From assembly GCF_032854445.1 (NCBI RefSeq), contig NC_088301.1, positions 29,374,402-29,438,401 on the forward strand: 64,000 nucleotides of DNA, given 5' to 3'. The stretch's first letter is position 1, and the number at the start of each line of letters is the position of its first letter. Shown piece by piece: positions 4,662 to 55,214 of this stretch. The notes beneath the pieces are model-generated. The model saw only the letters and a list, made by a program, of their open reading frames with translations, ran no database searches and was not told where the DNA came from. Position numbers and translations under genes: made by a program. The stretch comes from Liolophura sinensis. Lineage: Eukaryota; Mollusca; Polyplacophora; Chitonida; Chitonidae.

Positions 4662-4934
4662 TTTTTTTTTTGATTTTTTTTTTGGTTGGTGTTTTACGCC
4701 GTACTCAAGAATATTTCACTTATACGACGGCGGCCAGCATTATGGTGGGTGGAAACCGGGAACAGCCCGGGGGAAACCCACGACCATCCGCAGGTTGCTG
4801 GCAGACCTTCCCACATACGGCCGGAGAGGAAGCCAGCATGAGTTGGTCTTGAACTCACAGCGACCGCATTGGTGAGAGACTCCTGGGTCACTACGCTGCG
4901 CTAGCGCGCTAACCGACTGAGCCACGGAGGCCCC
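4662..4934 (-). mobile_element. Full tRNA-derived SINE (family A) with 11-bp target-site duplication
   Basis: Read on the minus strand it begins GGGGCCTCCGTGGCTCAGTC, with a Pol III A box (TGGCTCAGTCGG, 4924-4913) and a B box (GAGTTCAAGACCA, about 4856-4844). It ends in a conserved segment (AAATATTCTTGAGTACGGCG) and an A-rich tail. GCTTGATAGGT flanks both ends (4651-4661 and 4935-4945), direct proof of retrotransposition. Non-autonomous: it codes nothing and would rely on a LINE. Confidence 0.93.
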
Positions 4935-8032: not shown

Positions 8033-8371
8033 ATGGCGGAGAATAACCACACGATCACCGGGAACATTTCAGAAGTGGCGGGAAACTCGGGTTTGGATTA
8101 CCTCAACCGAACGACCCCCAGGCAACAATACCCGGGATACTACGATGAGTACTTTTACGATTATGATGACTCCATCAGCACGATACCCTTGGGGGAGGTG
8201 ATCCCGGTGGCCTTGGTTTACGGGCTTACTCTCATTCTTGGGGTCACGGGCAACACCCTTGTTATCTTCTCTATCGGGAGGTACAAACCCATGAGGAGTA
8301 TTACCAACATATTTCTGCTCAGCCTGGCTTCCGCCGACCTTCTACTTGTCTGTATCTGTGTTCCAGTCAAG
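8033..8371 (+). CDS. GPCR exon 1: N-terminus, TM1 and TM2
   Basis: This exon codes residues 1-113 and ends in phase 0 at AAG|GTAAGT. The ATG sits in a strong context (AAGCCATGG), and an in-frame TAA lies at 8027-8029, only two codons upstream, which fixes the start. The extracellular N-terminus has three N-glycosylation sequons (N5, N11, N25) and a Tyr/Asp/Glu-rich run (about residues 33-47) that resembles tyrosine-sulfation regions. There is no separate signal peptide, as is usual for class A receptors. TM1 is about residues 54-80 with the GN pair at 73-74. TM2 is about 91-111 with the LASAD motif. Confidence 0.95.
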
Positions 8372-32900: not shown

Positions 32901-35900
32901 TGGCTCGGGTGGGGCGGTTTACTTGCCTTCGGTTGTCTCAGTGAAGCAGCACTAGATAAAAGAGCGATGGAAATCCGTACTGCAACAAGGAGTCACATTA
33001 CATGCACTCTAAGGATTCCTTCGTCGTCATATGACTGAAAAATTAAGTACGACGTTAAGCCCAAGCACTTACTCACTCACTCTTCGTTCTTTGGAGGTTT
33101 GTATTAAACGTCGTTTTGGGAATTGGCCTCGCGATTTTTGCCCTTTGACCGGTCCTTACGAAGCAGTCGCATCATGCGTAACGCCCGTGTCAAAATATAG
33201 ATCCGTCACCATGGCAAATGCGCTTAATATCCCTGGAACGTCCATATGGGTTGTCGGCTGGTATACGAATGTCTGTTTCGACGCATAGATTCGCACATCA
33301 CAGAAGTCAGATAGTATTTCTTTCGCAAGATTATAACCTGTAAATCCACCAATGTGACACAGCTGAAAACCGTTTCAAGTAACAAACAGTAGCCTAGAGA
33401 CCGGATGCATGAACGAATCCATCCATCGACTTTTTGCTACATTAAAAGTAACTAACAGTGCGAAAACCATGGAAGCACTAACTTTTTGCCTCTAATTTCT
33501 AAATGTATTTTTGGTTTGACAGAATCGCCTCGATACTTTTGGAACTCTGAGGAATCAGCTTACTTTGCCGTTGATATAGATTAATAACAGAAGCCACTGG
33601 GTATTCCTTCAAATGGCCATTACCCCGGTGGCATGGAGTTACCTTTGCGAACTCCGTTTGGGATAACGGAGTGAAGACATGGGAAAATTGACATCCATTA
33701 CTCGAACCGTCTCGAGACTACAATGTCTTTTGGGCTATATGCCGAGTTTTACTTGCCATGGCGGCTTAAGGATACTAGGGGCTGTTCACACAGAGACCTT
33801 TCATTGACCACCCCAGAAGAGTTCCATTCGCCCGGCTTGCTGGCGTCCAGTGGCTTTTAAGGAGACAGAAGGGACCCGGAGAAAGGGATAATCAAAGCTA
33901 GGTCTCGCTATATGGCTTCATCATGGTCCTAATTGGATAAAAGACAGAATGCATTAATCTTTTGATACAGGGCTGCCTTTAGACCACTTCTGTCACAGTC
34001 TGCATAGGACTCCGCCAACAACAAACGACATTTGAGCGGCAGGTTTTTTGTAGCTTTTCAATATTTATTCCACCATATTACAAGCTTGATGTATTTTGCC
34101 CATGCATGGGTTGAATTTCAGGAAGGGAGAGGGGTAGGGAGCGTAGATGAGATTAGGCTGGTTAATTTTCGAACCCATACTCTGTATTCAAACCAATTCA
34201 GACAAACACTTTATGAGTTTTTTTTTTAGTGTAACAAAATGTTATATGCATGTTGAGGAAAGGACACATGGGGACAGCGACGCTGTATAGGCGGGAGCGA
34301 AGGGGATAAGAAAGATGATTTTAGATATTGATTCTGAAAATTTTCTTCATTATTGCGTTAAACAACAATCATATAAATAAATATGTGGCGAAAAGTGTAA
34401 AACCGTTCAGAACATGGATTTCCAAGAATAGAGTTTTATTTATTTAATTATTTGATTGTTATTTATCACCAAACTCACATTTTTCTCATACTTTGACGGT
34501 CATTTTTCATGACTTCAGGAAAGCTGAGTGTCCGTCATAATATCAGCAAGCTTTGGCAAGTTACTGACAGACTTTTAATTACTATTTCCGGCGCCAGTCC
34601 AGGTACAAATGATGTGTCATCCTGGTCTGCCAGAAAATAGTGTTGTGTCTTTGCATGAGGTGCGTCAGCCCTTTAGGATTGTAGGTGAAATCGGATAATT
34701 TGGATCTCCAAATCTGTAATTCTTGTCCTCGATTACAGTGAAGACTGAAAGGCTTACATCTTGCTTCCATCAACTGCTATCCTCTCATCTCCTACTTATT
34801 TCTTTACACCTGCGTTTCATTTAAGATTTTTCTTAACCTGTAGTGATCGACTGCATCAATATTTTACTGTCACTGTATCACTGTTTCATGTACTCAAGTA
34901 AGATGAATGAAAATCGGGCAAATCAGCTGCTCTAGCAAAAACCACTGTACGTCATCTAAATAATGAACCGCATTGCCGACATCCAGGCTCTACTAAATGA
35001 AGGGCAGCTGTTTTCGGTTGGGGAATGCGGATTTTCGAGGTCTAGTTTACTCCTGCACAAAACTTTTTTTGTGGCTTTGGAAAGTGTGTGATCAAGGAAA
35101 CAACATTCGCTGATCAACGACCGGGATACAACAAGAGTGGAAACATCCTCCCAGTAAATTAAAATATTCGAATGTCTCTAATTTAATGTGTCATAGAGTT
35201 TAAACATAGTAGATACATCTGAATTAAGGTGCTGCTTAGTGTGGTGATCTACCATTGACCATAGTATTACTGGAGACGCTGGATAAATCTTTCTGAAGTA
35301 GCTTTGGGGAGTTCATTTCTGCTTGAAAATAGAATTAACTATCTTCATGTACTGTAAGCCTACGCATCTTTTCTCCATACACTTTATTTCTCTGAAGATA
35401 AGTGGAAACTGTAGCTGGTATACCACCGATATAAATCGCGAGAGGGCATCCTTTCTAGCTGCGATAAGCAGGGCCCAATTTCACGAAGCTCTCTTAATGT
35501 TACGAGCTCGCAACTACCATGACGACGTAATGCCTACAGCCTTGGTTGCCGTGGTAGTTTAGCAAACGTAACTTTAAGAGTGCTTCGTGGAAGGGGCCTT
35601 GGCTCTGTAAATCTGTCCGTGTGTCGGTCGGTCGGTCGATCCGTAGGTCAAATTGTTGACATCCTAACTGATAACACAGATCCTTCACTCGCACATGTTT
35701 CTGTCTTCTTTTATACCCAGAAGTTGGTAAAGTTACTTTCAATTATAGCTGAATACTATTTGATTGCAAACAAAAATGATTTCATTTGATGTGTCCACAC
35801 TGAATGAATTACATAAATAGATTTAGGAGTGTTTATTACTGAAATACAGTATCTTAATACAAAGTACAGACTTTTCCGTCTTTATACCAGCCGATCGATT

Positions 35901-38900
35901 TAGAGCATCTTTGGACCCTCCGCTTTGGATGCAGAGCCTATTTGGTTATTTATTGATCGACTGTTGTTGACAGAAGCTAACTTTGCTATCGCTGTGTCCA
36001 GCTGGTTGATCAGATTAGGGTGACTCCGCCGCCCGAAGAGACGCTTCACTGCCTTTAAAAGTACCCTGCTGCCTTCGAAAGTATAAATAAAGGACTGGAA
36101 AACTAAGAAAATAACTGGTACTAACACAACGACTGTCATAAAAACTGGACATCTTTGAAGTTTACAAATAACTATACACAACCCTTTTTCGTTTTATAAA
36201 TAGAAATCGTGATGGACGTTTTCTTCATGGGAAACAGATGTTTTTCGTAATTGAATAGATACAAAAAGCAATTTCATTGTTACCTGTCACTAGATACCAG
36301 GAGATATGTAAACTTCATGAGTTAGTAATTTCATGAAGACATATCCTGATTGGGGAGCCTTTGTGAGTTAGAATTAAGAATTGCGTGTTTTGTACATAGT
36401 CAAGCCCATATGTAAACTTCATCAGTTAGTAATTTCATGAAGACATATCCTGATCGGGGAGCCTTTGTGAGTTAGAATTAGGAATTGCGTGTTTTATACA
36501 TGGTCAAGCTCATAGCCTATAGGACCGAAACAATGAGACCAGTGAGTATATGGAGGAACAGATGTAAACAACGTAACTGTAAGCGCATTGTGTGGGAGGA
36601 TATAATTTATTTATTTATTTATCTGATTGGTGTTTTACGCCGTACTCAAGAATATTTCACTTATACGACGGCGGCCAGCCCGGGGGAAACCCACGACCAT
36701 CCGCAGGCTGCTGGCAGGCTTTTCCACGTACGGTCGGAGAAGAAGCCAGCATGAGCTGGACTTGAACTCACAGCGACCGCATTGGTGAGAGACTCCTGGG
36801 TCATTGCGTTGCGCTAGCGCGCTAACCAACTGAGCCACGGAGGCCCCGGGATGATATAATAAATAAAGCCCTGAGATTTCACTGTCGATGACAAAAGATT
36901 CTTCGCTTGAATTTTTCCGCTTCGTATTGATACTGGGGCTATATGTAGTTCTCCACTTCCAAAATGCCGTCCTCATCACCTGCTCTCCGCTTCTGTTACG
37001 AATCAAAGAAATGATGACGAGAACTATAATCTCTGGCAGGTTTTAAGTATAACACTGTTTGTAATAATAGAACCTGACTAACACACGAGCTACTGTGGCA
37101 GAGTTATCCGTTGGGTTGTGCGTTTGACACCTGTCAGATACAAAGATATCATGTGGGCAGATTTGATATCGTATAGTAAGAGTGAAGGTCTACCAGCAAC
37201 CTGCGGATTGTCGTGGGTTTCCTCCCACCATAATAGTGGTAGTCTTCGTATATTATTCTGAAACACCAATCAAATAAGTGAATGCATCCTGATACCTCAG
37301 GTGTAAACACATTACAGTGTTTTTCAGGCTACAAACAGCCATTTGCCGTATATAACGTATATAAAACAATAGCAAGCAGTGAAAATGAGATAATAGGGAG
37401 GTTTCAGTCGACAGATACGGCATAAGAACGGATTAGTTTAATTTTGAACGAGGGTAACATATAGAGCTCACACGAGATTTGACCCACATGCCAATCTGTG
37501 CATACGACAGATGCCGTGTTTAACTGAATAAATCAATGACCGTCGATTAACACTGAAAGATTGGGCAAGGCTAAACTTGAAATTACCTAGTAATTTTAAT
37601 TTCTAAGCTTTGATTTCTAAACTTTTGAACTTGAATTTTGACAGATCACTCGCTAGAACGACATTCGTGCTCTTTATTTAATAAATATTTTTCTTTGTCA
37701 AAATAAATATTGTTTTACAGCACATTTATTAAATTTAGGTATGATGTGAAATGATTTCTAAAATCTGTCTGTTTCTTTTTGTCTCTTTCCCCTCCAAACA
37801 CCGCGAGCGTCAAGTAGTCTAAGCACCAGAAGGCATGTAAAAAAAAAACGTCGATATTTCATTAAAATGGAATTGTAACATAGCCTCTACTCGCTCAATC
37901 ATAACGTCTTGTTTTAGTTTTCCGCTCATATAACTGTCATTGGGGAAGACTTTATGAGAAGCAGGTCACAAAGGATTGATAATTGATGACAGTGTGAAAG
38001 TGAAGGGTAATATGTGTAGAGCGAAGATTTACATTAATTTTGGTTGTCACATTAAGTGTATCCTTTCTCAGTCATGGATCTAATCTAACGCTGTAACTTT
38101 TTGTCACCTGTTAAATAACAAAGATATTTTAGCGAAGGGTTTAGATCATCACCACGACAAAACATTACTGTTTATAGACTTTTATAAGTCTACATTATTC
38201 AGTGAATGAAAATCATGGCCTTTGCGAAGGCACCGGTTTAAACAGCCTTTGGTGAAGAGAAACTTGAATTATTCTCCACAGTCAGTTTTTCATGGCGGTC
38301 AGTTTTATGGGTAAAGGAAACACTATTGCGGACGGCCACAGGAGCGTCGTCGACCATTTATTGTTACCAAAGCCTCAAAAACAGTGAAAGGGGAGATGGG
38401 GTGGGGGGCTGGGTGGTGGGGTGTTGGGCTGGGTGGTGGGCTGGGTGGTGGGCTGGGTGGGGGGATGGGTGGTGGGGTGGTGGGCTGGGTGGTGGGGTGG
38501 GTGGCGGGCTGGGTGGTGGGCTGGGGAAGGGAGATCCACGAATTCCTTGTCCAAGGCCGGGATTGAAAGGTAATTGTTCTGATTTGCGATTAGTGTGATT
38601 CCTTTGACTCAAAGGCCGGTGAAAAATACGCTTATAAATGTTGCCTTGGTTTGATTACATGGTTCCCAGGCTCTAGAAAGCAGTAACTGAACATGCCAAC
38701 AACGCCTGGGCAATTCCATTTCTCTCTTCCATGAGCTGCGTAACTTGATAAAAGCTATATAACATGATATCTCTCTTTTATTCCCACAGTGCATCGCTTT
38801 CTTCACGTTTACCTGGGAACTGGGTTTGTTCATGTGTAAGTTTGTCCACTACATGCAGAATGTCTCCATGATCTGCTCTGTGGTGACCCTTACCGTCATG

Positions 38901-41900
38901 AGTGTGGAGAGGTAAGACTACCACCCTTAGTGTTCTCAACTTAAAATGATATATACATGTGCATGTTTGGAAAAAAAACTTTAAACGTTAACTTTGTGGT
39001 TCTCTAAAATGTATTTCTTACTTATGAATGGTTTTTCAACATTGTTTTTCTAGCGTTATTTTTTTAAAATTGTAATATCTTTGCAATATATAACATCATT
39101 GATATTGAATTACATATAACAGGGTAGTTGGTATATAATGGTTGTTATATGGGTTTAAGCATTCGGCCCTCAGTTAGGGAGACGCAAACCTCGTGCTCGA
39201 CGTGGTAACCTATATTCATTTTATAAACAAACGCCATTTTCAACGTGTAAAATATCTTTACATCATACCCACTAATAATTTTTGACTGAAGGCCTGTGGA
39301 TACAGGCCCTGTTACAGACTGGGCTTGTAGCAGAGCCAGTCAATACGCGGTATATGATGCGACAAGTACAAATGCCGATGTGTCGATTTACTTGATGTAA
39401 ACAAAGAAGTACAATTATGTTTCTTGGATTGTGCCAGAATCAAGATGTTAAAACCTATATTTTATTCTGCGTTGTGTGTCTGTTTGTGGTAGTGTTTGAC
39501 CATTAAAACAGAATTTAACTGATGTATTTCTCTAAATACCAGGAACACTTTAGATCTGAATTCACCACGCTCTTATCAGAATATGACTGTATTTAAGCGT
39601 GAGCAGAACAAAGGAAATGGGAAGGAAATTAAAACAGAAATTTCAACTTCAGTGAACTGAATGTAATATCTTCAGAAAGCTGGTCTGGTAAAAATATGCC
39701 GGCACTGAAAAAATCTGTTCGTCAATCGAAATGTCAAGACAACAACAATGACAGCCCACTGATCAGCCACTCCCTTTCAAATGTTGGAAGGCTATACTCC
39801 TGTAGTTTTTGTATCCCTACCAATCAGCCTTACCAACAAGCAAGTGGTTTTCCCTTGTATTTGTCAGTGTATGGTTGGTGATTTAGTCCGAGATGTCACT
39901 GCCACTGTCGAGGTAACATTCTTCTTACAACAGCCTATGTGTAGCAGCCTTTAAATGGTTGTAAATTTCATGTGATATATAGCGGGGAATGAAGTTATAT
40001 TTACCAGCAGGTAAAGCGGGAAGGCAGATGTGATATACTCTCTTTGATTACAAGCGCACAATTCACTGACTACCTGACTCTTGCATGCCCTCGCCATGAT
40101 ACAGATATAATACTGTGGATTACGTAAAGCCATACAAATTCCTTCATTTAAATTACCTGACCGGAGATGTATCGATTTTTAACTCTTTCAAATTTATATT
40201 TGATAATATTTATTAATTTCAATCAATGGGCAAGGCAGCCACACTTTTCACACTCAGGGAATTCGCAGTAAATTGGAACGACCTACCGTGCCTTCATATG
40301 AGCAACGAGACGCACAGGAAAAAGTATATAATGTTAAACACTGTTTCTCTCCCAAGAGAAACTCAGCATGACATTAGCACGTTAACAAAGAGATCCCTTT
40401 GTATCCATCTACATAAAGACTGCAGCACTGGACCATCAGAAATTCTTCCCATTTTAACGTGAAAAAAGGCATTGAAATAAATGTTTTTTGAAAGAAAAAA
40501 TACATTTCGGTTAACCATTGCAAGATAAATGGATCAGGGTTCAATTGTCGTGTTGGTAATTTCTTTACGGTTGGATTACAGAGTTTCCCTCGTTACCAAG
40601 ACGAGTGAGTATGTGGTTGCAGTGCACCAAATGTGGTTGGCATCTTTGGCGCACAAATGATGCTGTTTTTGTCGTTCAGCAAAAATGGAAATTGAGACTT
40701 TTGAGAACCATTACGAGAAAGTGCTGCGCTTTTTATATGTAAGGCTATAGTATCCATTCCGAAAATCATGCATTTCTAGAGTAGCTAACATTGACCTGCA
40801 ACATTCCATCGGGGATCGCTGTAAATTATCCCCGAGTCTGCACCATGTCACTTCAACCTTGGGTCGTTTTAAATTGTAACCAATAGAACTGTTTGTATAT
40901 CCTTGTTAGCAGAATTTTAAAGAACGCCGTTGGTGTTACACCAGTACATGCACCAGTACAATCTTGCAAACTAATTTCTTGGGGCTTCGTGTGCCATTTA
41001 TTTTGTATGATCAATGATAGCCTAAAAGACGATTTGCAGTTTCGTTATGACAAAGTAAGTTTCCTGATTTATCATTACTGACTTTAAATCTACTACACTA
41101 ACACCAAGGCCTCAAGATCCAACTATCCATCCAGCTCGTCCTAATAGAATACATAGTAACATCGTCTACGTGTAAAACCTTGAATTAATAAGTTATTAAT
41201 TATATCCAAGTACATCTAACAAAGGCGATTAGAAATAGTGACAAAAGATGTATGATTTACTTGTACATTCTCAAAAAAGGCGAGAAAAGCAGCAAGGAAA
41301 CGTGATTGATAAGGACAGAGAGAGTAGGCTGCTTTCTACTGACATTATGATCGACGTCGCATGGTTTAACAATCCATTTGTAACAGATAATGCTGTAATT
41401 ACGTTATTCTGTAGTAACTGTTTCTGAAAAGGGAACTGTATAAACGATGCTAGTTATTCGGGCCACGAACGGGATGTTCCTCAGTTTCTGACAAGATAGG
41501 TTTCTAAATTTCCTTAACTTATTCACTGTCTATGTACACAGACAGTCAGCTCGTGGTTAAACGTCAAAGCTACCACTTTTTCAAGGGGATAGTGGAGACA
41601 TTAGAAAGCTATGAGAAGAGACCGATCAATCTAGCTTCAACTTCAGCACGCCTAAAATCCCACTGACTTCATTGTCGCATTTGAATTTGCATACTATATG
41701 GAAACAGCGACAGAAATCCACGAAGCAAAATGCAAGCGGCCTTGTTTGTGTTGGTTTGTTGGTTTGCTGGTTTGAAGCCTCGCACAATGATTACTCGCAG
41801 CACACGCTAGTTTTTGCTGGGAAACTGTTATATACGTGGTTTCAGATAAAGTCTTTTGTACTTGTTCATGTGTATATAGTTCTTGAATTTTCAATGTATG

Positions 41901-44900
41901 ATTTCATTGTATCCCGTCATATATAACATTTCATCATCTTTCTTCAAGATTGATAGTAGATGTGGCTTTCCTCAGATGTCTATATAGAAATAAAAGCTTT
42001 TGAGAACAGTGACGGCCGTTACTGCATGGTATATTGAGCGAATAGATGGGTCAGAATGCGCTTAATATTCACATGCATGTTTATGTAATCTGATGACAGG
42101 ACAACATTTTGAGTAATTCTAAACAGGGGATGTCTAATAACTACATTTAACATCACTGGTGTTTTATTTTTTTGTTTTTTGTTGTTGTTGTTTTTTAACT
42201 GTGCGCAGTCTTGGTGGTAGGGGGTGTTTATTTTGGCAGTTTTCATCATTTATACATGAACAGTTAGAATAAGACCTTAACTGAGGTACACTGATGAGAG
42301 GTTATATTTCACCGGTTACGCCTAATCATTTACCAACTATCACACTGTCGTCGCTTCTCCAGTTTTACTTTCCAAGCTGATGTCTCGTATTATACATTCA
42401 GTGTGAAAATCTTATAGTGATTAAATCTTATATTTCCAGTTCAGTGCTTCGTGGCCTAAAATTGTAAGGCATTGTTATCTTAGGTCTAGAACACAGAATT
42501 GAACGTGTATTGTGAGCTTGGATGGATATGAAGTGGCTTGAAACGAAATCTTCTCCATCTAAAAGCTGTTCTCCGCTTTTCATGTCAAGTGCTTTCGCCG
42601 TCACCTTTAAAGACCATTTCAAACAGAAAATGTGAAAATTTTCTCAGACTTATGAGGTTTTGGCCTGTTATGTCCGATGGATACGCTACAGACTAAAATA
42701 ATAAAAACAGCGTCTTACAGTGCACAAAAGAGTGCAATGTCCTCCGCACCTATAGGATCTGAACTTTTATGGCTTGTTTTACGTATACGTTAATATTTTT
42801 TGGCCGAAAGTGTTTATTTTGTCCATTTCGTTTTGAATCCTTGACTAAAAGCTTTCACAATTTGAAAACTACACGTTGAAAAGAATGTATACATACACAT
42901 TTAAGTCTTATTTCCGTCATAATGTCGTACTTTATATACTGTCATAGCTCCAGATAAAATATACGATTTTTCCGCCCGCATCTAAATATGAAGGTTTGAT
43001 TTATACTTGGAGGACAGCAGGCAAGCATTCATTGAGTAAGAACAAGTGCCTTAAGATAACATAGGAAATAATTTGTTCTCAGTTCAGTGCTTCGTGGCAT
43101 TTTGCTAATGGTATCCTTCACTAACGTAAATGGACGATGTAAAATCACTTTTGATTGTACACTACATGAATAAAACTGTAAACTGAGAGCACAAAAATGC
43201 ACACAAGGTTACCAGCAAATATCACTGTATAATTACAGTGAGGAGTATTATGCTCTGTATTCTACATTATAACAGTGAGGAGTATTATGTTCTGTATTCT
43301 ACATAATTACAGTGAGGAGTATTATGTTCTGTATTCTACATAATTACAGTGAGGAGTATTATGTTCTGTATTCTACATAATTACAGTGAGGAGTATTATG
43401 TTCTGTATTCTACATAATTACAGTGAGGAGTATTATGTTCTGTATTCTACATATGATCTACATTGTCATTTTACAACACCTTGGCCTTTGTATATAACAA
43501 ACAATTGAAAGTGTATGTAATATTTGTGTAGAGTTATGTAGAGTTACCATTTTTGTGAGATACAGTCGCCATCGGGCTTTGCACACCCAATAATAGGAAA
43601 ATACTTTTTTTTGTCGCTTATGAAAAGAATGGTTCACTGCAGGGCTACTCCATTACAGGGGATATTCTATTACTTCAATAGATGGCTTTTACACGTGTCC
43701 AAGAATTGAACTTTAGGTCAGGAACATTTAAACACAAAAAGGAAAGGTTGCACTCAAACACTTTTTTGATAGGAGTCAAATTCGTTTGGTATTTTGTATG
43801 AAGTTCAATATTAACAGGATATGTTTAAATAGCTTGAAAAGCTAGGATAATGTGATTTGAAAAACTTGGTTTCGATGGCGCGTAACCTGGAACCTGCATG
43901 ATTTGTTTAAATGCCAAATTTCATAAAGACCTTGTTTACATGCAAACCAGCTCGATAAATAAGTTAAAATATTTAGGACGTGTGTAGGGAAGACTGTTAT
44001 GTATTTCTAATGTGATCTTGTGCGATTACAATGAGGGTGAATTCAAACACCACGTACAGTTATATATCCCCGAAACCATGAAGTGATGGATATTAGGGCT
44101 TTGCGCCATCATGCAACCTTTGATTTCAGCACAATAAATTAGCAATTAAACTTTTCTTTCCTCTTGGATTTTAGCCTCACAGTGTGGAATTTTTTATTTC
44201 TTGCTGTGAGTGATTGCTGAGCAATTCGGTCACCGGTTAAATACGTTGGTCAGCTGCCTCTTCCTTGTACGCTGTAGATTTGTGGTTCATTTCGGAGTGG
44301 TCGTGACTAATACCGTAACATCGGTAACCTTGGTACTACCTCGCTTGGCACTCAACGTCAATGGAATAGGCCAAGTACTGGTCACATAACCTGACTGGGT
44401 AGAGTGTCCTGTGTGGTGTCTTCAGCATGGAGCGCCAGTGAGTCAGCATTCTAAACATGTCGACATAGGGTCTGTTAGGCTACAGGGAACACCGTCTTGA
44501 TATGACCAAAATGTGTATATTTTTGAAAACGATGTTAAAACCCATCCAAAGTACCAAAAGAAAGCAAATTGGCCCTAGCCTCGGCTTTTTTTTTTAGGAC
44601 GATAGCGTTCATGAGTCAAATACAAAGTCTTTATGCACCGTGTTGATAAGGTCGACTTGTGTTGATCAGGCCTGATTGAGGTTGATTACATCTCGAAACA
44701 ACGATAACGACTAGAAAGAAGACATGTATATCTTCCTATAACCTCCAACACATTTGTAACACATTGGAAAATCTCTTAAAAACTATCATTTCTTTATCCT
44801 GTGAATCCTGGTTGAGAACACATGTGGTTCACTAGCTATCTTTAACAATAACATATTAAGTGTAGAGGAAGTATAAGGCAGAAAGTTGCATTTGTTACAT

Positions 44901-47900
44901 ATTTATTCATTTGACTGGTGCATAAATGCGTATTATGCAAGAATTCTTCACAAAGTTACATTTGTGATGCAGTGATTTTTATAACGCTGCAGTGTCTAAT
45001 GCAGAAAAAAAATATTTCAGTGTCACTGGAGCCGGCTACAATTTTTCGATTATATGACGTGTACATCTCTTCAGTCCATATTTGGAGCTTTATAAGTCGT
45101 ATGCTTGCCATATAACAGGAAAAGACGAGTAAAACAGAACCGGAAAAAAGAAGTAGCCTTACGAGTGTATCAGTAGCTGTCACTTACAGCTATAGTCACT
45201 TTCGCTACTAGAGGTCCACAGTTTCTTGCACAGGGGCTGATTCCCCGCCTTACCACACCACGTCCTTCATGACTGGACACCGACAGCGACATCGATATTT
45301 CCACCATCACAATACTTCGCCTCACTTCTTTACAGCGAGCTAAAACCCTCATTTTCTTTGGTGGAAACTTGAACAAAGACCATATGAAATAAATTTTTAT
45401 CATGGGTGATGTTATAATTTATGATGTATTTTTCCCATTATTTATTTATACACCTTTCCTCACTATCATATATCCTGAGGATTTTTCAACTCACAAGCCG
45501 ATATGTCATGTACAATGTTCTCAAACTGCATCCGCAACACTCTTCTTCTTGATCTCCACCATTAGCATTAATCACCACTTGCTTCAACCTCTGGCCAGTT
45601 CGTTATAACCGTCTCTGTCACAACATTCATCAATTTGACCGTCCAATTTGACCCTCTTTGCAGACAGATACTCTGCCTGAAAACTCCTGTGGACTCAGTA
45701 TAGGAGCCAGGGTAAACTGTCGTTGGACTCCGTCCGATTGAAGCCATTCCTTAATTACCAGCGGATGTGGTTGAGTTATTTTCCCATTAACACATCGAGA
45801 ACTATTTTCCCAAATCTGTAATAGCATGCGAATCAGTCGGAAACCAGTGCGATGTCCTAGCAACAGATAAAGCAATTTAAAAATCGGGGGTCCAAGGTTG
45901 TGTCCAATGCAACCCGCAGTGCATTGATTTGCCTTTCGTCCATTTGTCACCAGAGCTGATCAATCTACCCTATGAGTGCCCCAAGCTGACACCTGCAGCT
46001 TCATCCCAATGCCAAACATCAGCCGGGAGTTTTGCCTTTACTTGTTTTGCTCGGCAGTGACGCGTCGAATGTAAATGTCGAGATCTTCCGGGAGTCGTTA
46101 ACATTCACGCTTCATTGGAGAGCGTGGCGTTGTGTTCTACCAGACTTAGTCTGGATTAAGCTGTATAACCGGTGCCGAAACTGAAGCTTTTTAGGTTACA
46201 AACTGTCGGAGGCTTGGTTGAATCCGGCACTTGATTTTCTGCAAGATTGTTTGCATGCTGACGCCATCGCATGGCGCAGAGTGTTGTGCTGGACTGGCAC
46301 AACACTCAGTAACACTACCTAACAAACAGTGCAGGCGTAAAAAGTAATTTACAGTTTTGCAAAAACCTGGTGTTTTTCACACAGCAGTTAAATTTCATTT
46401 ATTCATATGGGCTGTACATGTAGGGTAATTTCTTACAGGTGGCACTGCGCAATAAGAAACTCATCTGGTGCTAGATTTATTGAACCTTTTACCACATTTT
46501 CGAGAAGATTAAGAAACAAAGGATTCTGTGCGTGTAAATTTACAAACTGCGGTCTAATCAAGTCTAAAATAACGGATTGTTTTCGTAAACTCTTAACGAA
46601 TTTGGATTATTCAGCTGTGTTCTGTGTTACCGGCTAGGCTTCAAGGAGAGAGGCGCACTAGATAGAACCATGCACTTTGGATGTACTTAAGCTGAATCCA
46701 GCTTTTGTCCATGTTCTCCATATTTATCATCAGAAATTTGATAATTACATGCATTTTTTGTAAGCTTGTACTTTTACCCGTAAGACCTGCCAAGGATTGG
46801 CAAACAGTTTTGTTTTTGTTTCCAAGAGATACAACAAAAAAGTTTCTACATTTTTTTCACCCTCAGGTTCATAGCCATACTGTTCCCCCTCCAGGCCAAA
46901 TCCTTGTGCACTCCGAAACACGCAATTATCCTGTGTATTCTAATCTGGGGCATGTCCTTCATCCTGGCAATCCCCATTCTCTTTGGTCAGGTAAGTCCGT
47001 ACAAGTGTATAGAAACACGCAATTATCCTGTGTATTCTAATCTGGGGCATGTCCTTCATCCTGGCAATCCCCATTCTCTTTGGTCAGGTAAGTCCGTACA
47101 AGTGTATAGAAACACGCTGTTATCCTGTGTATTCTAATCTGGGGCATGTCCTTCATCCTGGCAATCCCCATTCTCTTTGGTCAGGTAAGTCCGTACAAGT
47201 GTATAGAAACACGCAATTATCCTGTGTATTCTAATCTGGGGCATGTCCTTCATCCTGGCAATCCCCATTCTCTTTGGTCAGGTAAGTCCTTTTAAGTGTA
47301 AAGAAACACGCTGTTTCCCCTGTGCAACCTGGTCTAGTGCATGATCATGTCCTTTATCCTGGCAGTCATCATTCTCCTCAGTCAGGTAAGCCCTTGTTAA
47401 TGCATAGAAACTTGCAGTTCTCCCATGCATCCTAATTTGATGCATGTGCTTCATCCTCACAGTCTCCATTCTTTTTGATCACTTAAGCCCTTACAAATAT
47501 ATAGAAACATGCGTTCCCCGTGTATCCTGATAGGGCGCATGTCCTTTGATCAGCTAAGTCCCTGTGAACGTATAGAAACACCCTGTTCTCCTGTGTATCC
47601 AGATTTCTTGCATGTCCTTGATGCTGGCAATCCCATTTCTCATTGGCCAGGTAAGTCCTTGTGAACGTATAGAAACACCTTGTTCTCATGTTTATCCAGA
47701 TTTCTTGCATGTCCTTGATGCTGGTATTCCCTATTCTCACTGGCCAGGTAAGTCCTTGTGAACGTATAGAAACACCCTGTTCTCATGTTTATCCAGATTT
47801 CTTGCATGTCCTTGATGCTGGAAATCCCCTTTCTCATTGGCCAGGTAAGTCCTTGTAAACGTATAGAAACACCCTGTTCTCATGTTTATCCAGATTTCTT

Positions 47901-50748
47901 GCATGTCCTTGATGCTGGAAATCCCCTTTCTCATTGGCCTTGTGGGTATACAGAAACACGAATTTCTCTCGTATATCTTAATCTGATGTGTGTCCTTCAT
48001 ACTGGCAATCTCCAACCTCTTTACCTTAATTATTTTGTTTTCATGTGTTTACATGTACATGGTTGATTTCCTCGTGCTCTTTGCTGTGTGTCAAATGTCT
48101 TCGTACACACCGATACATAAAGTGCTTCTAACGTGCTTCTATCTGCACTGAGTCAAGTCAACGTTTCCTGTTTTTCTGCTTTAAAAAAATTGTGCATCAG
48201 CACTTCCCCTCCGGGTGACGATTTCGCATCTAGTTGCAAGAGGTCCTTAGCGACACTTTTTGCTTTCCAAAAAAACAAAAAAAAAACGTTTGACGACAAC
48301 CGGCGTTTTCAGTGGTTGTGGAAACATAAAAAATGTGAAGTTTTTGTCCAATTAGTTTTTTGTTGCAAGAAATCAACCCAAAATAACAGATAACTTTCAT
48401 TTCTGTTAGTATGTTTTTTTCTCGCATAGTGATGAATTTAATAGCTTGGCGTTTGTTCGTGAATGTTTGTACTAGATGATGTGAACACTTTGTCTTTGTG
48501 TCTGGTTCTTCCCACCATAATGCCGTCCGCCGTCGAACAATTAGGTGAAATATTCTTGAGTACAGCGTAAACCAGCAGTCAAAAAATACACTTGTCTTTG
48601 TTGACAGACTGAGGTTGAAGTTGGAGTGCTTCGTAAGGCTTTTTGGTGTATGAAGCGCTGGGAGAAGCCGTTGTATGATAAGCTGTATGAAATGTACATG
48701 CTGGTCTTACTCTTCATCATACCTGTCTTCATCATGGTCATCGCTTACGCTGGCATCTGCCGTGAGCTGTGGGTCGTGACGTCACATCGGGCACAGCTGC
48801 GGGCGTCAAGGTAATACATACAATTTAAACTCGTGTTATCAGTTCATATCTTGTGCTGGGATTACACTATCAGTAAAACTTGTCCAGAAGCCATTCCTGT
48901 GAAATTAGCGATGGAATTTTGCCTTACAATGCTCAAGCGCCAGAAATTTTCTGCAAACGTTAAATCTAATCGATTTTTTCCTGTTACCGTACAATAGCCC
49001 AAATAATTATCTTTTACAAAATGTCAGTCTCGTCTGTGGTACTAAAGTTACAAAGTGAGTTCCATTTTTGTATCATTTGTTGAATCATTTTAAGACTAAA
49101 TAGCACAGGTAAGAGTTTAATATTTACTAAAATCCAGTATTTGAGTTACTTTGAAGTAATACAGAAAACTGATTTGATTAGCAAATATGTTTGTTTTTTT
49201 TTTGGGGGGGGGGGGGGGAGGGAGAAAAACTTTCTGGTACTGTCCCCATGACTTGCTAATGGACAAGACAGTACCTGTGTCCATCAGCTTAGTACATGAA
49301 AAATGTGAACTCCAGGATCAAGAACAAGAAAAAACAGCATCCCCAACAAGAACAAAAAAGCCAGTAATGTGCCGTTCTGCAGAGTGTAATGTTACTATTA
49401 TACTGCTTTGTTTCAGCGATGTCCAAACTATGTATTACCATCCTGCCGGGCATACGGTGGCTCCTGTAGCCAGATCCTACTTCGCTAAACAAAAAGTCAA
49501 GAAAGTCTCAAAGGAAGATGACAACACTAGGAGACAGGTAAAGAAATTAAAAAGAATGGAACAAAAACTGAAAATAATATTGACTTTAAATATAAAAGAC
49601 TACAACCTAGAGGGGAAAAGTAGAGCAGCGAGGACAGTGTGACAGTTGGCAAATAGTCTCACGTAACCGGGGAAATCCTTGTCATTTTATCTCAGTTATT
49701 GTTTTATTCTAACTGTTCATATAAATACTGACCTCCTATCACCATAGTTGAAGCAAAACATCATTGATACCTGGTGTTATAAGCCTGGACCGTTTGAGTT
49801 TGCTGAAAAGGACGAAGCCAGGACATGTCGCCGCAGACAGAGTTCGCGGCCCAAAAGACTATGTGAATGCGCATACTCCAGGCATATAGTGACAAAAATA
49901 TCACAGTGTAGATTATGAAGGCTTGCCCGTAATCTTTCATCGCTGATAGAGACGGATGGACGAAAGAATTCTTCATAAGGCCTTCTAGTTTTGCAAAACT
50001 AGACGACTCTTTCAATCAGAAGCTCCCTGGAACGTTTAGCACTCAGGTGTATGTGTGAGAGAACAAGAGCTTCGGGCAAGGACATATGTGGGCCTATAAA
50101 GAACGTAAAGGAATAAATGAATGGAAAATATTAAACATTTTAACACGGCCAAATTGATTCGAAGAACTGACAATATAAATTCATTTGTTCGGGTGTTTTT
50201 TATGTAATGGTCACCGCGCTATTGTGTCAGATAAATACAATTCTGAACACCATTTTAATGGAGTTAAGTGGAGGTGATTGTAAGTGTGATATTAACTTTT
50301 TTTCGTGTAGGTCATCCAGATGTTGGTGGTTGTTGTCGTACTGTTTGCAGTGTGTTGGGGACCAATACTGATTAACAACGTTTTGGCTGCCTGGGGAGTC
50401 ATACACAAACTTCACTACGCCTACCTCAAGCCCATGAGACAGGCGTTTTTCCTTATGTCCTACCTTAACAGTTGTGTCAACCCAATCGTCTATGGATTTA
50501 TGTCTAAAAATTTTCGAGAAAGGTTTCGTCACGCGATTTGTCGCGCGTGCGGACGCCGGATGTGGCTGTCCCGATGGTTTCGTAAGCGGAAACATGAGCG
50601 AGGAAATCGACCCTCTAGACTGACTGGAACCATCAGCATGTCGAGAACAATGTCCATGAGAACGGACCTGGAGACAGACCAGACAGACTACCTGTCAGAT
50701 ACCATACGGCCCATAGCCCCTTTCGAAAACAGCTCCGATACGACTTAA
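8033..50748 (+). CDS. Class A (rhodopsin-like) neuropeptide-type GPCR, complete, six coding exons
   Basis: I joined 8033-8371, 38790-38911, 46867-46990, 48608-48810, 49417-49537 and 50311-50748. Every junction is GT-AG, and the total is 1347 bases, giving 448 residues and a TAA. The product is a plasma-membrane seven-helix receptor expected to couple an extracellular peptide to G proteins. Landmarks are N74 in TM1, the LASAD box with D102 in TM2, C129 before TM3 paired with C209 in ECL2, E153-R154-F155 at the end of TM3, W181 in TM4, FxxCWxP (315-321) in TM6 and NPIVY (360-364) in TM7. Cysteines 380 and 383 after helix 8 could be palmitoylated, and a Ser/Thr-rich tail follows. Intron phases are 0, 2, 0, 2 and 0. 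By eye it fits the CCK/QRFP/TRH/ghrelin/trissin-receptor-like peptide group; the exact subfamily is inference. No frame break or missing key residue is seen. Confidence 0.95.
8811..8902. repeat. (TA)n microsatellite in intron 1
   Basis: About 92 bases of AT repeats with one C interruption near 8868. Confidence 0.98.
10325..10390 (+). repeat. Interspersed repeat family C fragment
   Basis: AATTAGAATAAAAGCCTGAT, TGAGGTAAATTGACAGGAGG and CCGTATTTCACCC match the family start. Confidence 0.7.
10918..11082. repeat. Fold-back element with about 50-bp inverted arms
   Basis: The left arm (10918-10966) starts GATGGTTTGTAATGGCAGCC and the right arm (11032-11082) ends GGCTGCCATTGCAAACCATC. The arms are about 85-90% complementary around a 65-base loop. 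Likely a MITE-like or fold-back transposon relic. Confidence 0.85.
11870..12175. repeat. Tandem repeat, about 57-64 bp unit, five copies
   Basis: GTCTAGCTAT(GAATCTGTTC) recurs at about 11887, 11946, 12007 (as ATCTCGCTAT), 12070 and 12131, each followed by TTAAGTGGATGGTTTGAC. The last two copies are almost identical. Confidence 0.88.
12611..12680 (-). mobile_element. SINE family A fragment
   Basis: Matches the 3' segment (GGTGTTTTACGCCGTACTCA ... GCATTATGGTGAG); the tRNA-like head is missing. Confidence 0.7.
15488..15560 (-). mobile_element. SINE family A fragment
   Basis: GATTGGTGTTTTACGACGTA followed by AAGAATATTTCACTTATTCG matches the 3' end of family A; truncated. Confidence 0.7.
15650..15985 (-). 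mobile_element. SINE family B relative, near full
   Basis: On the minus strand it has a tRNA-like head with GGGATCAAACCCGG (B box), CCTCGCTTGGCGCTCAGCAC, GCGGCATGGACTCGCCCGG, then the family-B tail with ACGACGTTAAACC. No protein is encoded. Confidence 0.85.
16838..16885 (-). repeat. Interspersed repeat family C fragment
   Basis: GATATACGGCCTCTTGTCAA and ATTACCTCAG on the + strand are the reverse of the GAGGTAA-TTGACAAGAGGCCGT part of family C. Confidence 0.55.
20383..20445 (-). mobile_element. SINE family B, extreme 5' truncation (63 bp) with 15-bp target duplication
   Basis: Only the 3' end is present: GAGTGAGTGAGTGCTTGGGG ... CAATTTTTCAGTCATATGAC. ACAATATTAGGTAGA occurs exactly on both sides (20368-20382 and 20446-20460). 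Confidence 0.93.
20470..21120. repeat. Minisatellite with 34-bp monomers that become a 68-bp higher-order unit
   Basis: The left part (to about 20750) is a run of diverged ~34-bp monomers of the type GTGAATCC-GCCATTGTATGTCC-AGTGCCTTTTG. The right part (about 20760-21115) is a 68-bp dimer unit (period checked at 20835 and 20903) whose copies are nearly identical. Confidence 0.9.
21888..21990 (+). repeat. Interspersed repeat family C copy
   Basis: TAGAATAAAACACTAACTGA, CACAAGAGGCGGTATTTCAC and CATACTGCCGTCGCTGTTCT match the copy at 42250. Confidence 0.78.
22163..22300. mobile_element. Palindromic MITE-like element, copy 1
   Basis: GTTTCATGAAGCTTAATTAG at the left and CTTAGCTAAGTGAGCTTCAT-GAAAC at the right are inverted. 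Inside is CTTAGCTAAGTGCACTTTAT. No coding capacity. Confidence 0.85.
22548..22662. mobile_element. Palindromic MITE-like element, copy 2
   Basis: About 85-90% like copy 1, in the same orientation 385 bases away, with the same GTTTCATGAAGCTTA start and GTGAGTTTCATGAAA end. Confidence 0.85.
24020..24310. repeat. Minisatellite, 44-bp unit, seven copies
   Basis: CAGCCCTTGCTGGCTCTTGG recurs at 24024, 24068, 24112, 24156, 24200, 24244 and 24288, an exact 44-base period with few changes. Confidence 0.95.
24325..25775. repeat. Satellite of about 14-bp units, roughly 100 copies
   Basis: The unit is GTGACGAGGTGTAT with variants (CTGAGGTGTATGTG, GACCAGGTGTATGT, GACAAGGTGT). Because 14 is not a multiple of 3 and the unit lacks minus-strand stops, the minus strand is open in all frames as a 14-residue repeat (LVTYTSSHTPRH-like). 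I treat these frames as artefacts. Confidence 0.95.
25884..25945 (+). mobile_element. SINE family A tail fragment
   Basis: CTCTGTCCGGTTTCCACCCA plus AAATCAAATCAATCAATAAA matches the end of family A; it lies just beyond the 14-bp satellite. Confidence 0.5.
29930..30045 (+). repeat. Repeat family D, copy 1 (shortened)
   Basis: TTCTTTGGTGGTTTGTGTTA, CGTCGTTTTGGGAGTTGGCC, TTGCGATT and GACGGCTGGTATACGGGTAC match the copy at 33088-33285, but about 90 internal bases are missing. Confidence 0.7.
30571..30785. mobile_element. MITE-like element with 28-bp terminal inverted repeats
   Basis: The left arm (30571-30598) starts AATTAATTTGTTAAATTTAA and the right arm (30758-30785) is its inverse with two or three mismatches. 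The about 215-base element is AT-rich and non-coding. I could not fix the target duplication because the flanks are A/T runs. Confidence 0.82.
32873..33082 (+). mobile_element. SINE family B, 5'-truncated
   Basis: GGCTCGGGTGGGGCGGTTTA through ACGACGTTAAGCCCAAGCAC and an ACTCACTCACTC tail, close to the copy at 54894-55214. I found no clear target duplication. Confidence 0.88.
33088..33285 (+). repeat. Repeat family D, copy 2
   Basis: TTCTTTGGAGGTTTGTATTA, CGTCGTTTTGGGAATTGGCC and GTCGGCTGGTATACGAATGT match copy 1 in the same order. It directly follows the SINE at 32873-33082. Class unknown. Confidence 0.7.
35468..35600. mobile_element. Palindromic MITE-like element, distant relative
   Basis: CCCAATTTCACGAAGCTCTC at the left and AAGAGTGCTTCGTGGAAGGG at the right form inverted ends, with CGCAACTACCATGACGACG inside. 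Same general design as the 22163 and 22548 elements, but diverged. Confidence 0.65.
35832..35837 (-). terminator. Poly(A) signal on the minus strand after the candidate small gene
   Basis: AATAAA on the minus strand (TTTATT on +) lies about 62 bases after the TAA of the 35900-36139 frame. Its placement supports that frame as a real 3' end, although the hexamer is common in AT-rich DNA. Confidence 0.35.
35900..36139 (-). CDS. Candidate small minus-strand gene or terminal exon nested in intron 1
   Basis: From ATG (36139-36137) the frame codes 79 residues and ends in TAA at 35902-35900. An AATAAA follows on the same strand at 35837-35832. The first about 20 residues (MTVVVLVPVIFLVFQSFIY) are strongly hydrophobic, like a signal peptide or membrane anchor. 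They are followed by VLLKAVKRLFGRR, a cationic stretch holding dibasic sites and a Gly-Arg-Arg amidation-type signal. Alternatively, TTTTCTTAGTTTTCCAG| is a good acceptor at 36095-36096, which would make 36094-35900 the last exon of a longer gene whose upstream exons I cannot find. I do not recognise the family. The ATG context is weak. Confidence 0.35.
   Translation of the reverse strand: MTVVVLVPVIFLVFQSFIYTFEGSRVLLKAVKRLFGRRSHPNLINQLDTAIAKLASVNNSRSINNQIGSASKAEGPKML
36306..36513. repeat. Tandem duplication, 104-bp unit, two copies
   Basis: ATGTAAACTTCATGAGTTAG starts at 36306 and its near copy at 36410; each runs through GGGGAGCCTTTGTGAGTTAG to a GTCAAGC-CATA end. About 93-95% identical. 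Confidence 0.93.
36607..36852 (-). mobile_element. tRNA-derived SINE (family A), second near-full copy
   Basis: Same structure and orientation as the copy at 4662-4934, but lacking about 27 bases in the middle (the ATTATGGTGGGTGG segment). The likely short target duplication is GATATAAT at 36599-36606 and 36853-36860. Confidence 0.88.
37192..37290 (+). mobile_element. SINE family A fragment, opposite orientation
   Basis: CCAGCAACCTGCGGATTGTC, then CCACCATAATAGTGG, then AACACCAATCAAATAAGTGA match the body and tail of family A on the + strand; diverged. Confidence 0.7.
38396..38528 (+). repeat. G-rich minisatellite with many G-quadruplex runs, before GPCR exon 2
   Basis: Built from GGGCTGGGTGGTG and related units with more than a dozen GGG runs on the + (sense) strand, ending 262 bases before the exon-2 acceptor. 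In the pre-mRNA this would be a G-quadruplex-prone stretch. Confidence 0.93.
38790..38911 (+). CDS. GPCR exon 2: ECL1 and TM3 up to the ER(F) motif
   Basis: The acceptor is TTCCCACAG| and the donor is AG|GTAAGA. The exon codes residues 114-153 and the first two bases of R154. It supplies the ECL1 tryptophan (W122), the TM3 cysteine C129 that normally forms the disulfide to ECL2, and TM3 ending in SVER. The intron splits the arginine codon of the (D/E)R(Y/F) motif, a known old intron position in rhodopsin-like receptor genes. The exon is too short and too isolated to show as an obvious open frame; it was found because its translation continues exon 1 in phase 0. Confidence 0.94.
42250..42365 (+). 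repeat. Interspersed repeat family C (ATGAACAGTTAGAATAA), best copy
   Basis: Starts ATGAACAGTTAGAATAAGAC, then CTTAACTGAGGTACACTGAT, TTTCACCGGTTACG and CACACTGTCGTCGCTTCTCC. Other copies are at about 180-245 (+), 10325-10385 (+), 16838-16885 (-), 21888-21990 (+) and 49632-49728 (-). No coding capacity or clear ends, so the class is unknown. Confidence 0.8.
43230..43452. repeat. Minisatellite, 37-bp unit, six copies, in intron 2
   Basis: GTGAGGAGTATTATGTTCTG recurs with an exact 37-base period (GAGGAG at 43240, 43277, 43314, 43351, 43388 and 43425). Copies 3 to 6 are essentially identical. Confidence 0.96.
44310..44450 (+). mobile_element. SINE family B relative, fragment
   Basis: GGTACTACCTCGCTTGGCAC, GGCCAAGTACTGGTCAC and CTGACTGGGTAGAGTGTC match the middle of the 15650-15985 element on the other strand. 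Confidence 0.65.
46867..46990 (+). CDS. GPCR exon 3: ICL2 and TM4
   Basis: The acceptor is TTTTTCACCCTCAG| and the donor is CAG|GTAAGT. One base completes R154, then 41 codons encode residues 155-195. ICL2 reads FIAILFPLQAKS, typical of peptide receptors, and TM4 contains W181 and P190. The last 76 bases (46915-46990) are the founder of a tandem array that fills the start of the next intron. This first donor is the one that joins exon 4 in frame. A 97-base extension to the second donor would meet TGA immediately inside exon 4. Confidence 0.93.
46915..48030 (+). repeat. Tandem array of the exon-3 end plus its splice donor (97-bp unit, about 11 extra copies)
   Basis: The unit is the last 76 bases of exon 3 joined to the first 21 bases of intron 3. 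Copies end at 47087, 47184 and 47281 (97-bp steps, nearly identical to the exon), then at 47385 (104), about 47483 (98, donor lost) and 47553 (70, shortened). They continue at 47650, 47747, 47844 and about 47940 (97-bp steps, a second similar subgroup), with a decayed last copy to about 48030. Intact GTAAGT or GTAAGC follows CAG at 46991, 47088, 47185, 47282, 47386, 47651, 47748 and 47845. The copies lack the first 48 bases of exon 3 and its acceptor, so they are not full alternative exons. Confidence 0.95.
48508..48585 (+). mobile_element. SINE family A fragment just before GPCR exon 4
   Basis: CCCACCATAATGCCGTCCGC and GTGAAATATTCTTGAGTACA match the SINE tail. It ends about 25 bases before the exon-4 acceptor, so part of the pre-acceptor intron sequence is SINE-derived. 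Confidence 0.75.
48608..48810 (+). CDS. GPCR exon 4: ECL2 and TM5
   Basis: The acceptor is TTTGTTGACAG| and the donor is TCAAG|GTAATA. It codes residues 196-262 and two bases of S263. ECL2 contains C209 (in FWCMKRW), the expected partner of C129. TM5 is about residues 222-245 with P234 and ends in AYAGICRELW, a form common in peptide receptors. The exon then enters the third intracellular loop. It starts in phase 0, matching the end of exon 3. Confidence 0.94.
48811..49416 (+). other. Intron 4 of the GPCR gene
   Basis: A 606-base GT-AG intron. Its only notable content is a homopolymer block, about T10 followed by G15, at 49194-49218. Confidence 0.85.
49194..49218. repeat. T10-G15 homopolymer block in intron 4
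   Basis: A run of T followed at once by a run of G; the exact lengths are prone to sequencing error. Confidence 0.85.
49417..49537 (+). CDS. GPCR exon 5: third intracellular loop
   Basis: The acceptor is CTTTGTTTCAG| and the donor is AGACAG|GTAAAG. It completes S263 and codes residues 264-303. The segment is hydrophilic, contains HTVAPVARSYFAKQKVKKVSKEDD and ends in TRRQ, the basic stretch that leads into TM6 in this receptor class. The long third loop is where G-protein choice is largely set. This is the least conserved exon, so the call rests on splice sites and on the exact phase match (phase 2 in, phase 0 out). Confidence 0.85.
49538..50310 (+). other. Intron 5 of the GPCR gene
   Basis: A 773-base GT-AG intron. 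It contains a reverse copy of the ATGAACAGTTAGAATAA interspersed repeat at about 49632-49728; I see nothing else. Confidence 0.85.
49632..49728 (-). repeat. Interspersed repeat family C copy in intron 5
   Basis: On the minus strand: ATGAACAGTTAGAATAAAAC, AACTGAGATAAAATGACAAG, CCGGTTACGTGAGAC, TTTGCCAACTGTCACAC, in the same order as the copy at 42250. Confidence 0.78.
50311..50748 (+). CDS. GPCR exon 6: TM6, TM7, helix 8 and cytoplasmic tail
   Basis: The acceptor is TTTTTTTCGTGTAG|. The exon codes residues 304-448 and ends in TAA. TM6 begins VIQMLVVVVVLFAVCWGP with the W319/P321 toggle motif. TM7 ends in SCVNPIVYGFMSKNFRERF, with NPxxY followed by the helix-8 phenylalanine. Cysteines 380 and 383 are candidate palmitoylation sites. 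The tail has basic clusters and many Ser/Thr residues, suitable for GRK/arrestin control by family knowledge. Confidence 0.96.
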   Translation, partial: VIQMLVVVVVLFAVCWGPILINNVLAAWGVIHKLHYAYLKPMRQAFFLMSYLNSCVNPIVYGFMSKNFRERFRHAICRACGRRMWLSRWFRKRKHERGNRPSRLTGTISMSRTMSMRTDLETDQTDYLSDTIRPIAPFENSSDTT

Positions 50749-54893: not shown

Positions 54894-55214
54894 GGGGACC
54901 GGTAGATCCAGGATCAATCCTTGATCGAGTCACACCTAAGACTTTAAAATAGGGAGTTGTAACTTCCTCGCTTGGCGTTCAGCATGAAGGGGATAGTGCA
55001 ACGACTGGTTGACCCGTATCAGTATAATGGCTCGGGCGGGGCGGCTTACTTGCCTTCGGTAAGTCGTCTCAGTGAAGCAGCACTAAATAAAAGAGCGGTG
55101 GAAATCCGTCCTTCAACAAGGAGGCACATTATACGTACATGCACCCTAATGATTCCTTCGTCGTCATATGACTGAAAAATTGTTGAGTACGACGTTAAAC
55201 CCCATGCACTCACT
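54894..55214 (+). mobile_element. SINE family B, full or nearly full, with target-site duplication
   Basis: A second SINE family: tRNA-like head, a middle segment with GCTCGGGCGGGGCGGCTTAC, then ATGACTGAAAAATTGTTGAG, TACGACGTTAAAC and a CACTCACTCACT tail. GAAGTCGACAGGGT is repeated exactly on both sides (from 54880 and from 55219), proving insertion. Confidence 0.93.

Follow-up and report, generated by a model that had tools for sequence, protein, structure and literature searches.

The boundary between exon 3 and intron 3 of a complete peptide-receptor gene is overlaid by a tandem array of 12 units in the window (the whole 64-kb stretch of DNA that was analysed). With a probability of about 0.88, this array is a minisatellite of the kind called 'mirage', in which an exon-intron junction was duplicated, amplified in at least two bursts and followed by decay, with the first donor used and the rest spliced out. 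According to this explanation, one tandem duplication would have included the final 76 bases of exon 3 together with the first 21 bases of intron 3, and slippage or unequal exchange would later have amplified the unit in at least two bursts, one giving units 8-11 and a more recent one giving units 1-4. The remaining copies would have decayed, and selection on the receptor would have kept the live exon intact. With the first donor used, the remainder of the array would leave with intron 3 in splicing. In this course of events we infer the duplication mechanism, the order in time and the donor actually used.

The receptor gene and its exon 3 boundary

Joining of the exons gave a complete six-exon gene that codes for 448 residues of a class-A peptide receptor. 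The product is a Rhodopsin-family (class A) 7TM receptor with a full 7tm_1 domain: residues 73-364 of the joined protein match the Pfam profile 7tm_1 over its entire length (1-260 of 260, E 2.1e-60), and the best solved relatives, among the best 60 of 882, are galanin receptor 1, KiSS-1 receptor and orexin receptor 2. Each of the five introns begins with GT and ends with AG, and the open frame starts with the ATG at 8033 and closes with the stop codon at 50746-50748. Exon 1, which was located through its TM1/TM2 motifs, lies 38 kb 5' of exon 3, and its start is a proposed one, the first ATG of the open frame. Exons 4-6 were located by following the sequence further in the 3' direction. A frame-by-frame Pfam scan of 10-kb stretches returned no match, for which the way of asking is at fault, given the strong match of the joined exons. 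Searches of the 64-kb window with Rfam, at gathering scores, and with ARAGORN gave no hit. The exons are as follows.

8033..8371, + strand: exon 1, N-terminus, TM1 and TM2 (open frame, GPCR motifs, donor AAG/GTAAGT, joined frame)
38790..38911, + strand: exon 2, TM3 up to the ER of the E/DRY motif (found through the split codon at ER)
46867..46990, + strand: exon 3, the stretch between the ER motif and the end of TM4 (covered by Pfam 7tm_1; its last 76 bases are unit 1)
48608..48810, + strand: exon 4, extracellular loop 2 and TM5
49417..49537, + strand: exon 5, intracellular loop 3
50311..50748, + strand: exon 6, TM6, TM7, C-terminus and stop

The preliminary description had placed the array inside a receptor gene and at the end of the TM4 exon, and the joined gene bears out both statements. 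Its further claim that the 97-bp unit consists of 76 bases of exon 3 (46915-46990) and 21 bases of intron 3 (46991-47011) was confirmed by TRF, which called period 97 at 46915-47311, 46915-47546 and 47551-47939, and by splitting the array into units at the recurring GAAAC motif. This split delimited 12 recognisable units, namely the end of exon 3 itself and 11 copies in intron 3. A profile made from the units found 12 matches in the 64-kb window at E up to 10, all of them in 46915-48023. Eight of the 12 units are 97 bases long, and the others measure 104 (unit 5), 71 (unit 7), 87 (unit 11) and 78 (unit 12). Among the exon ends, only the donor side of exon 3 has tandem copies: blastn with 120-base exon-end stretches found none at the other exon boundaries of the gene at E up to 0.01.

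Chance can by no means account for the repeat itself, but its position has to be judged against the other arrays. Minisatellites with a period of at least 10 cover 7.5% of the window, and in circular shifts of all arrays, which ignore selection, at least one of the ten internal exon boundaries of the gene fell inside an array in 41% of cases (26% for arrays with a period of at least 30). An array that overlaps some exon boundary is therefore not surprising here, and selection would ensure that the exon under the array still works.

Several other repeats are present in the window. The 30-kb intron 1 contains a large minisatellite block at 24020-25775 (44-bp x 6.4 and 14-bp x about 103) and tandem repeats of 34/68/103 bp at 20513-21119, and a G-rich minisatellite of the GGGTGGTGGGCT type at 38399-38525 ends 264 bases before exon 2. 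In intron 2, a 37-bp unit containing TTACAG/TGAG is repeated six times with 97% matches at 43229-43453, and no exon of the receptor gene was found at this array. The translations of 32781-33038 and 54963-55175 end alike (IPSSSYD), perhaps as parts of a dispersed repeat element. The stretch 48548-48588, before exon 4, has reverse-strand matches of 83-87% at 4678-4716, 15498-15533 and 36616-36657, and is perhaps a short dispersed repeat.

Donors, units and the history of the copies

CAG/GTAAGT or CAG/GTAAGC is present in eight of the 12 units, that is, at the exon's own end and in seven of the 11 intronic copies, and the donor has been lost in units 6, 7, 11 and 12. The eight donors stand where they had been described before, and six of the seven downstream ones are as perfect as donor 1.

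46991..46996, + strand: donor 1, full receptor (given by none of the other seven)
47088..47093, + strand: donor 2, +97, frameshift, stop just past exon 3
47185..47190, + strand: donor 3, +194, stop within the extension
47282..47287, + strand: donor 4, +291, a multiple of 3, yet stop within the extension
47386..47391, + strand: donor 5 (GTAAGC), +395, stop within the extension
47651..47656, + strand: donor 6, +660, a multiple of 3, yet stop within the extension
47748..47753, + strand: donor 7, +757, stop within the extension
47845..47850, + strand: donor 8, +854, stop within the extension

Every one of the seven downstream donors (2-8) thus leads to a premature stop. A longer exon 3 as coding sequence was considered and ruled out, as none of the seven gives a frame without such a stop. 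Because the receptor is obtained through donor 1 only, the array is expected to have no effect, or to do harm if splicing moved to the later donors. Donor 1, the nearest to the exon 3 acceptor, would normally be the one used, and the array probably leaves the protein unchanged.

In relation to the unit of the exon, the copies form the following parts.

46915..48030, + strand: tandem array, 12 units over the exon 3/intron 3 boundary (TRF, unit split, profile)
46915..47302, + strand: young block of units 1-4, the first of which is the end of the live exon, mutual identity 93.8-100%
47303..47574, + strand: decayed units 5-7, donor kept in unit 5 only (GTAAGC)
47575..47952, + strand: second burst, units 8-11, mutual identity 86.2-94.8%, CAG/GTAAGT in units 8-10 and lost in unit 11
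47953..48030, + strand: unit 12, the most distal, truncated, donor lost

The three units adjoining the exon had been called nearly identical to it, and in ungapped columns they match it at 97/97 (unit 2), 95/97 (unit 3) and 93/97 (unit 4) bases. Units 5-12 match at 62-76%, with 72/97, 73/97, 44/71 and 74/97 for units 5-8 and 69/97, 73/97, 62/87 and 55/78 for units 9-12. In the tree of the units, which has 12 short rows, mostly weak branches and a root for drawing only, units 1-4 are grouped with support 82/95 and units 8-11 with support 96/99, and units 5, 6, 7 and 12 are isolated. Therefore, the second, diverged subgroup that had been proposed for the far units holds for units 8-11 but not for units 5, 6, 7 and 12, which stand apart. 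The separate groups 1-4 and 8-11 point to at least two rounds of amplification, of which the younger would be the one beside the exon. A C at column 15, a C at column 26 and a T at column 36 are common to the seven readable old units and set them apart from the exon group, which means that the exon itself has since changed or that the old units all stem from one early copy.

Two aspects of the old copies bear on whether they have ever been held as coding sequence. Units 1-4 keep the codon that aligns with the TM4 tryptophan (TGG), and it is lost in all seven readable old units (5, 6 and 8-12; unit 7 has a gap there), with a stop in its place in units 5, 6 and 12, as expected for non-coding DNA. 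The ratios of nonsynonymous to synonymous change against the exon are 0.49-0.69 for units 5, 6, 8, 10 and 12 (unit 7 was excluded for its gap, and units 9 and 11 are outside the set). They say nothing on coding selection, since in neutral simulations with 20 changes, owing to transition bias, 15-35% of runs come down to a ratio of 0.62 or below and 7-20% to 0.5 or below.

Alternative explanations

The closest alternative is a variant of the mirage explanation and compatible with it, namely repeated rewriting of the adjoining units through gene conversion, with the live exon as the source. Among units 1-5, each of the four combinations of the variants AA or TG at columns 10-11 with G or T at column 92 is present, which means that these units recombined or were converted, or that a mutation recurred. 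However, unequal exchange within units or repeated mutation yields the same mosaic, and conversion is therefore rated as possible but doubtful. Of the two processes put forward in the preliminary description, repeated rounds agree with the unit groups and with the most exon-like units being next to the exon, whereas the mosaic offered for gene conversion could also come from unequal exchange or a repeated mutation. An assembly artefact, in which mis-joined reads or joined haplotypes inflated the copy number, is the least probable of all. Units 1 and 2 are identical over 97 bases, so one of them could be an assembly duplicate, and there is a precedent in an aberrantly assembled mirage noted in the amphioxus draft (PMC3087553). 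On the other hand, units 3 and 4 carry variants of their own, and units 5-12 are too far from the exon, with 24-38% difference, to have arisen as its copies in assembly. It is also very improbable, though marginally less so, that donor choice is regulated, with donors 2-8 giving premature-stop mRNAs and nonsense-mediated decay tuning the level of the receptor. The uniform premature stops and the well-preserved downstream donors are in agreement with such regulation; however, wherever reading runs on into an intron a premature stop is likely, and a third of the units lack the donor. In six representative units, and against plain neutral decay, conservation is among the highest in the columns immediately inside the donor: columns 78-86 (TAAGTCC and neighbours) rank first of 89 nine-column windows (0.911), and the windows starting at columns 76 and 79 are also within the top eight, but the window that coincides with CAGGTAAGT, at columns 74-82, has a score of 0.826, with 0.807 as the mean. 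Judged from these six units only, the conserved columns could leave some room for a function of later donors.

The exon 3 end could also be read as a branch point, a pyrimidine tract and a CAG joined to GTAAGT, which would make the array a ladder of recursive splice sites, removed by one or more units per step with the exon 3 end restored each time. We consider this ladder improbable, and likewise the reading of the exon end on which it depends. Units 2-4 each have the branch-point-like motifs CTAAT and TTCAT, 73 AG-free bases, 82% pyrimidine and then CAG/GTAAGT, and among the five donor-side exon ends of the gene, that of exon 3 stands out by its 82% pyrimidine, its long AG-free stretch and its branch-point-like motifs. 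With a loose acceptor rule (pyrimidine at least 0.64, AG-free for 20 bases), 5/5 real acceptors, one of the five exon ends (exon 3) and six of the seven intronic array donors pass, compared with a background of 130 of the 1117 other YAG in the gene (11.6%), and the array sites make up eight of the 12 YAG/GTRAG on the + strand of the window. However, the loose rule followed on a stricter one, which 0/5 real acceptors met, a branch-point-like motif is found in the AG-free zone of just one of the five real acceptors, and eight further YAG of the array, which stand before no donor, also pass (15/29 overall, including the exon end). The copies all descend from one site and are therefore one observation, not eight, and the TM4 coding sequence alone can account for the pyrimidines. 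The ratchet points of Drosophila, from which the definition was taken (PMC8605326), are acceptor-like sequence joined to a donor, which the exon 3 end and most of the array donors may resemble by the loose rule; as described there, they are mostly in long introns and demonstrated on RNA, whereas here the sites are in tandem, in a 1.6-kb intron, and read from DNA. If the recursive reading were true, the extra copies would be harmless to the mRNA, each being spliced away without trace, and mirages would be retained preferentially where an exon end acts as a ratchet point; this reading would also explain why such arrays are tolerated.

Comparison with known splice-junction repeats

Mirages are described in amphioxus globin genes, where splicing is reported as normal though many copies carry splice signals (PMC3087553). 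According to the same source, mirages can affect either exon end, Adh3 and other loci are cited as examples, and mirages are proposed to seed new introns. In lancelet PGBD5, imperfect tandem repeats of 60 and 108 bp lie over splice sites, and troponin C is mentioned as well (PMC3902484). To call a coding exon edge turned into a minisatellite unusual, as had been done at the outset, was therefore overstated, since the same structure is in print for several amphioxus genes (PMC3087553, PMC3902484). The array would be classed as a mirage on its anatomy, as it spans the exon-intron boundary of a real gene and many of its copies keep the signal, and it is on anatomy that the likeness to the amphioxus mirages is drawn.

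A peptide-receptor gene is thereby added to the genes with splice-junction minisatellites, and its 12 units exceed those given for BflGb6 (6 and 3; PMC3087553) or for the 108-bp repeat of PGBD5 (3; PMC3902484). How the spliceosome chooses among several identical donors can naturally be tested on such arrays, and so can the intron-seeding proposal of PMC3087553.

The nearest parallels are BflGb6 and BflGb9, in which, as here, tandem copies span a boundary, many copies keep the splice signal, and the units are homogenised within the cluster with the edge unit left out (PMC3087553). In our array the homogenised units are 1-4 and 8-11, and unit 12 at the edge is diverged; divergence is also seen in the middle, in units 5-7, and homogeneity is greatest at the exon edge. 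BflGb9 shares with it the duplication of the 3' boundary of an exon, with a unit of 157 bp against 97 bp in 12 units at a 7TM receptor donor, whereas in BflGb6 the units, 6 in one haplotype and 3 in the other, measure 150-160 bp and lie at an acceptor (PMC3087553). The amphioxus Adh3 mirage (Canestro et al. 2002, via PMC3087553) likewise has boundary tandem repeats with undisturbed splicing; its units are 10-72 bp, and instability in length and in somatic tissue is reported for it, compared with the one haplotype considered here. In PGBD5 the tandem repeats include splice junctions in the same way, but the 108-bp unit is triplicated there as against the 12 units of the receptor gene (PMC3902484).
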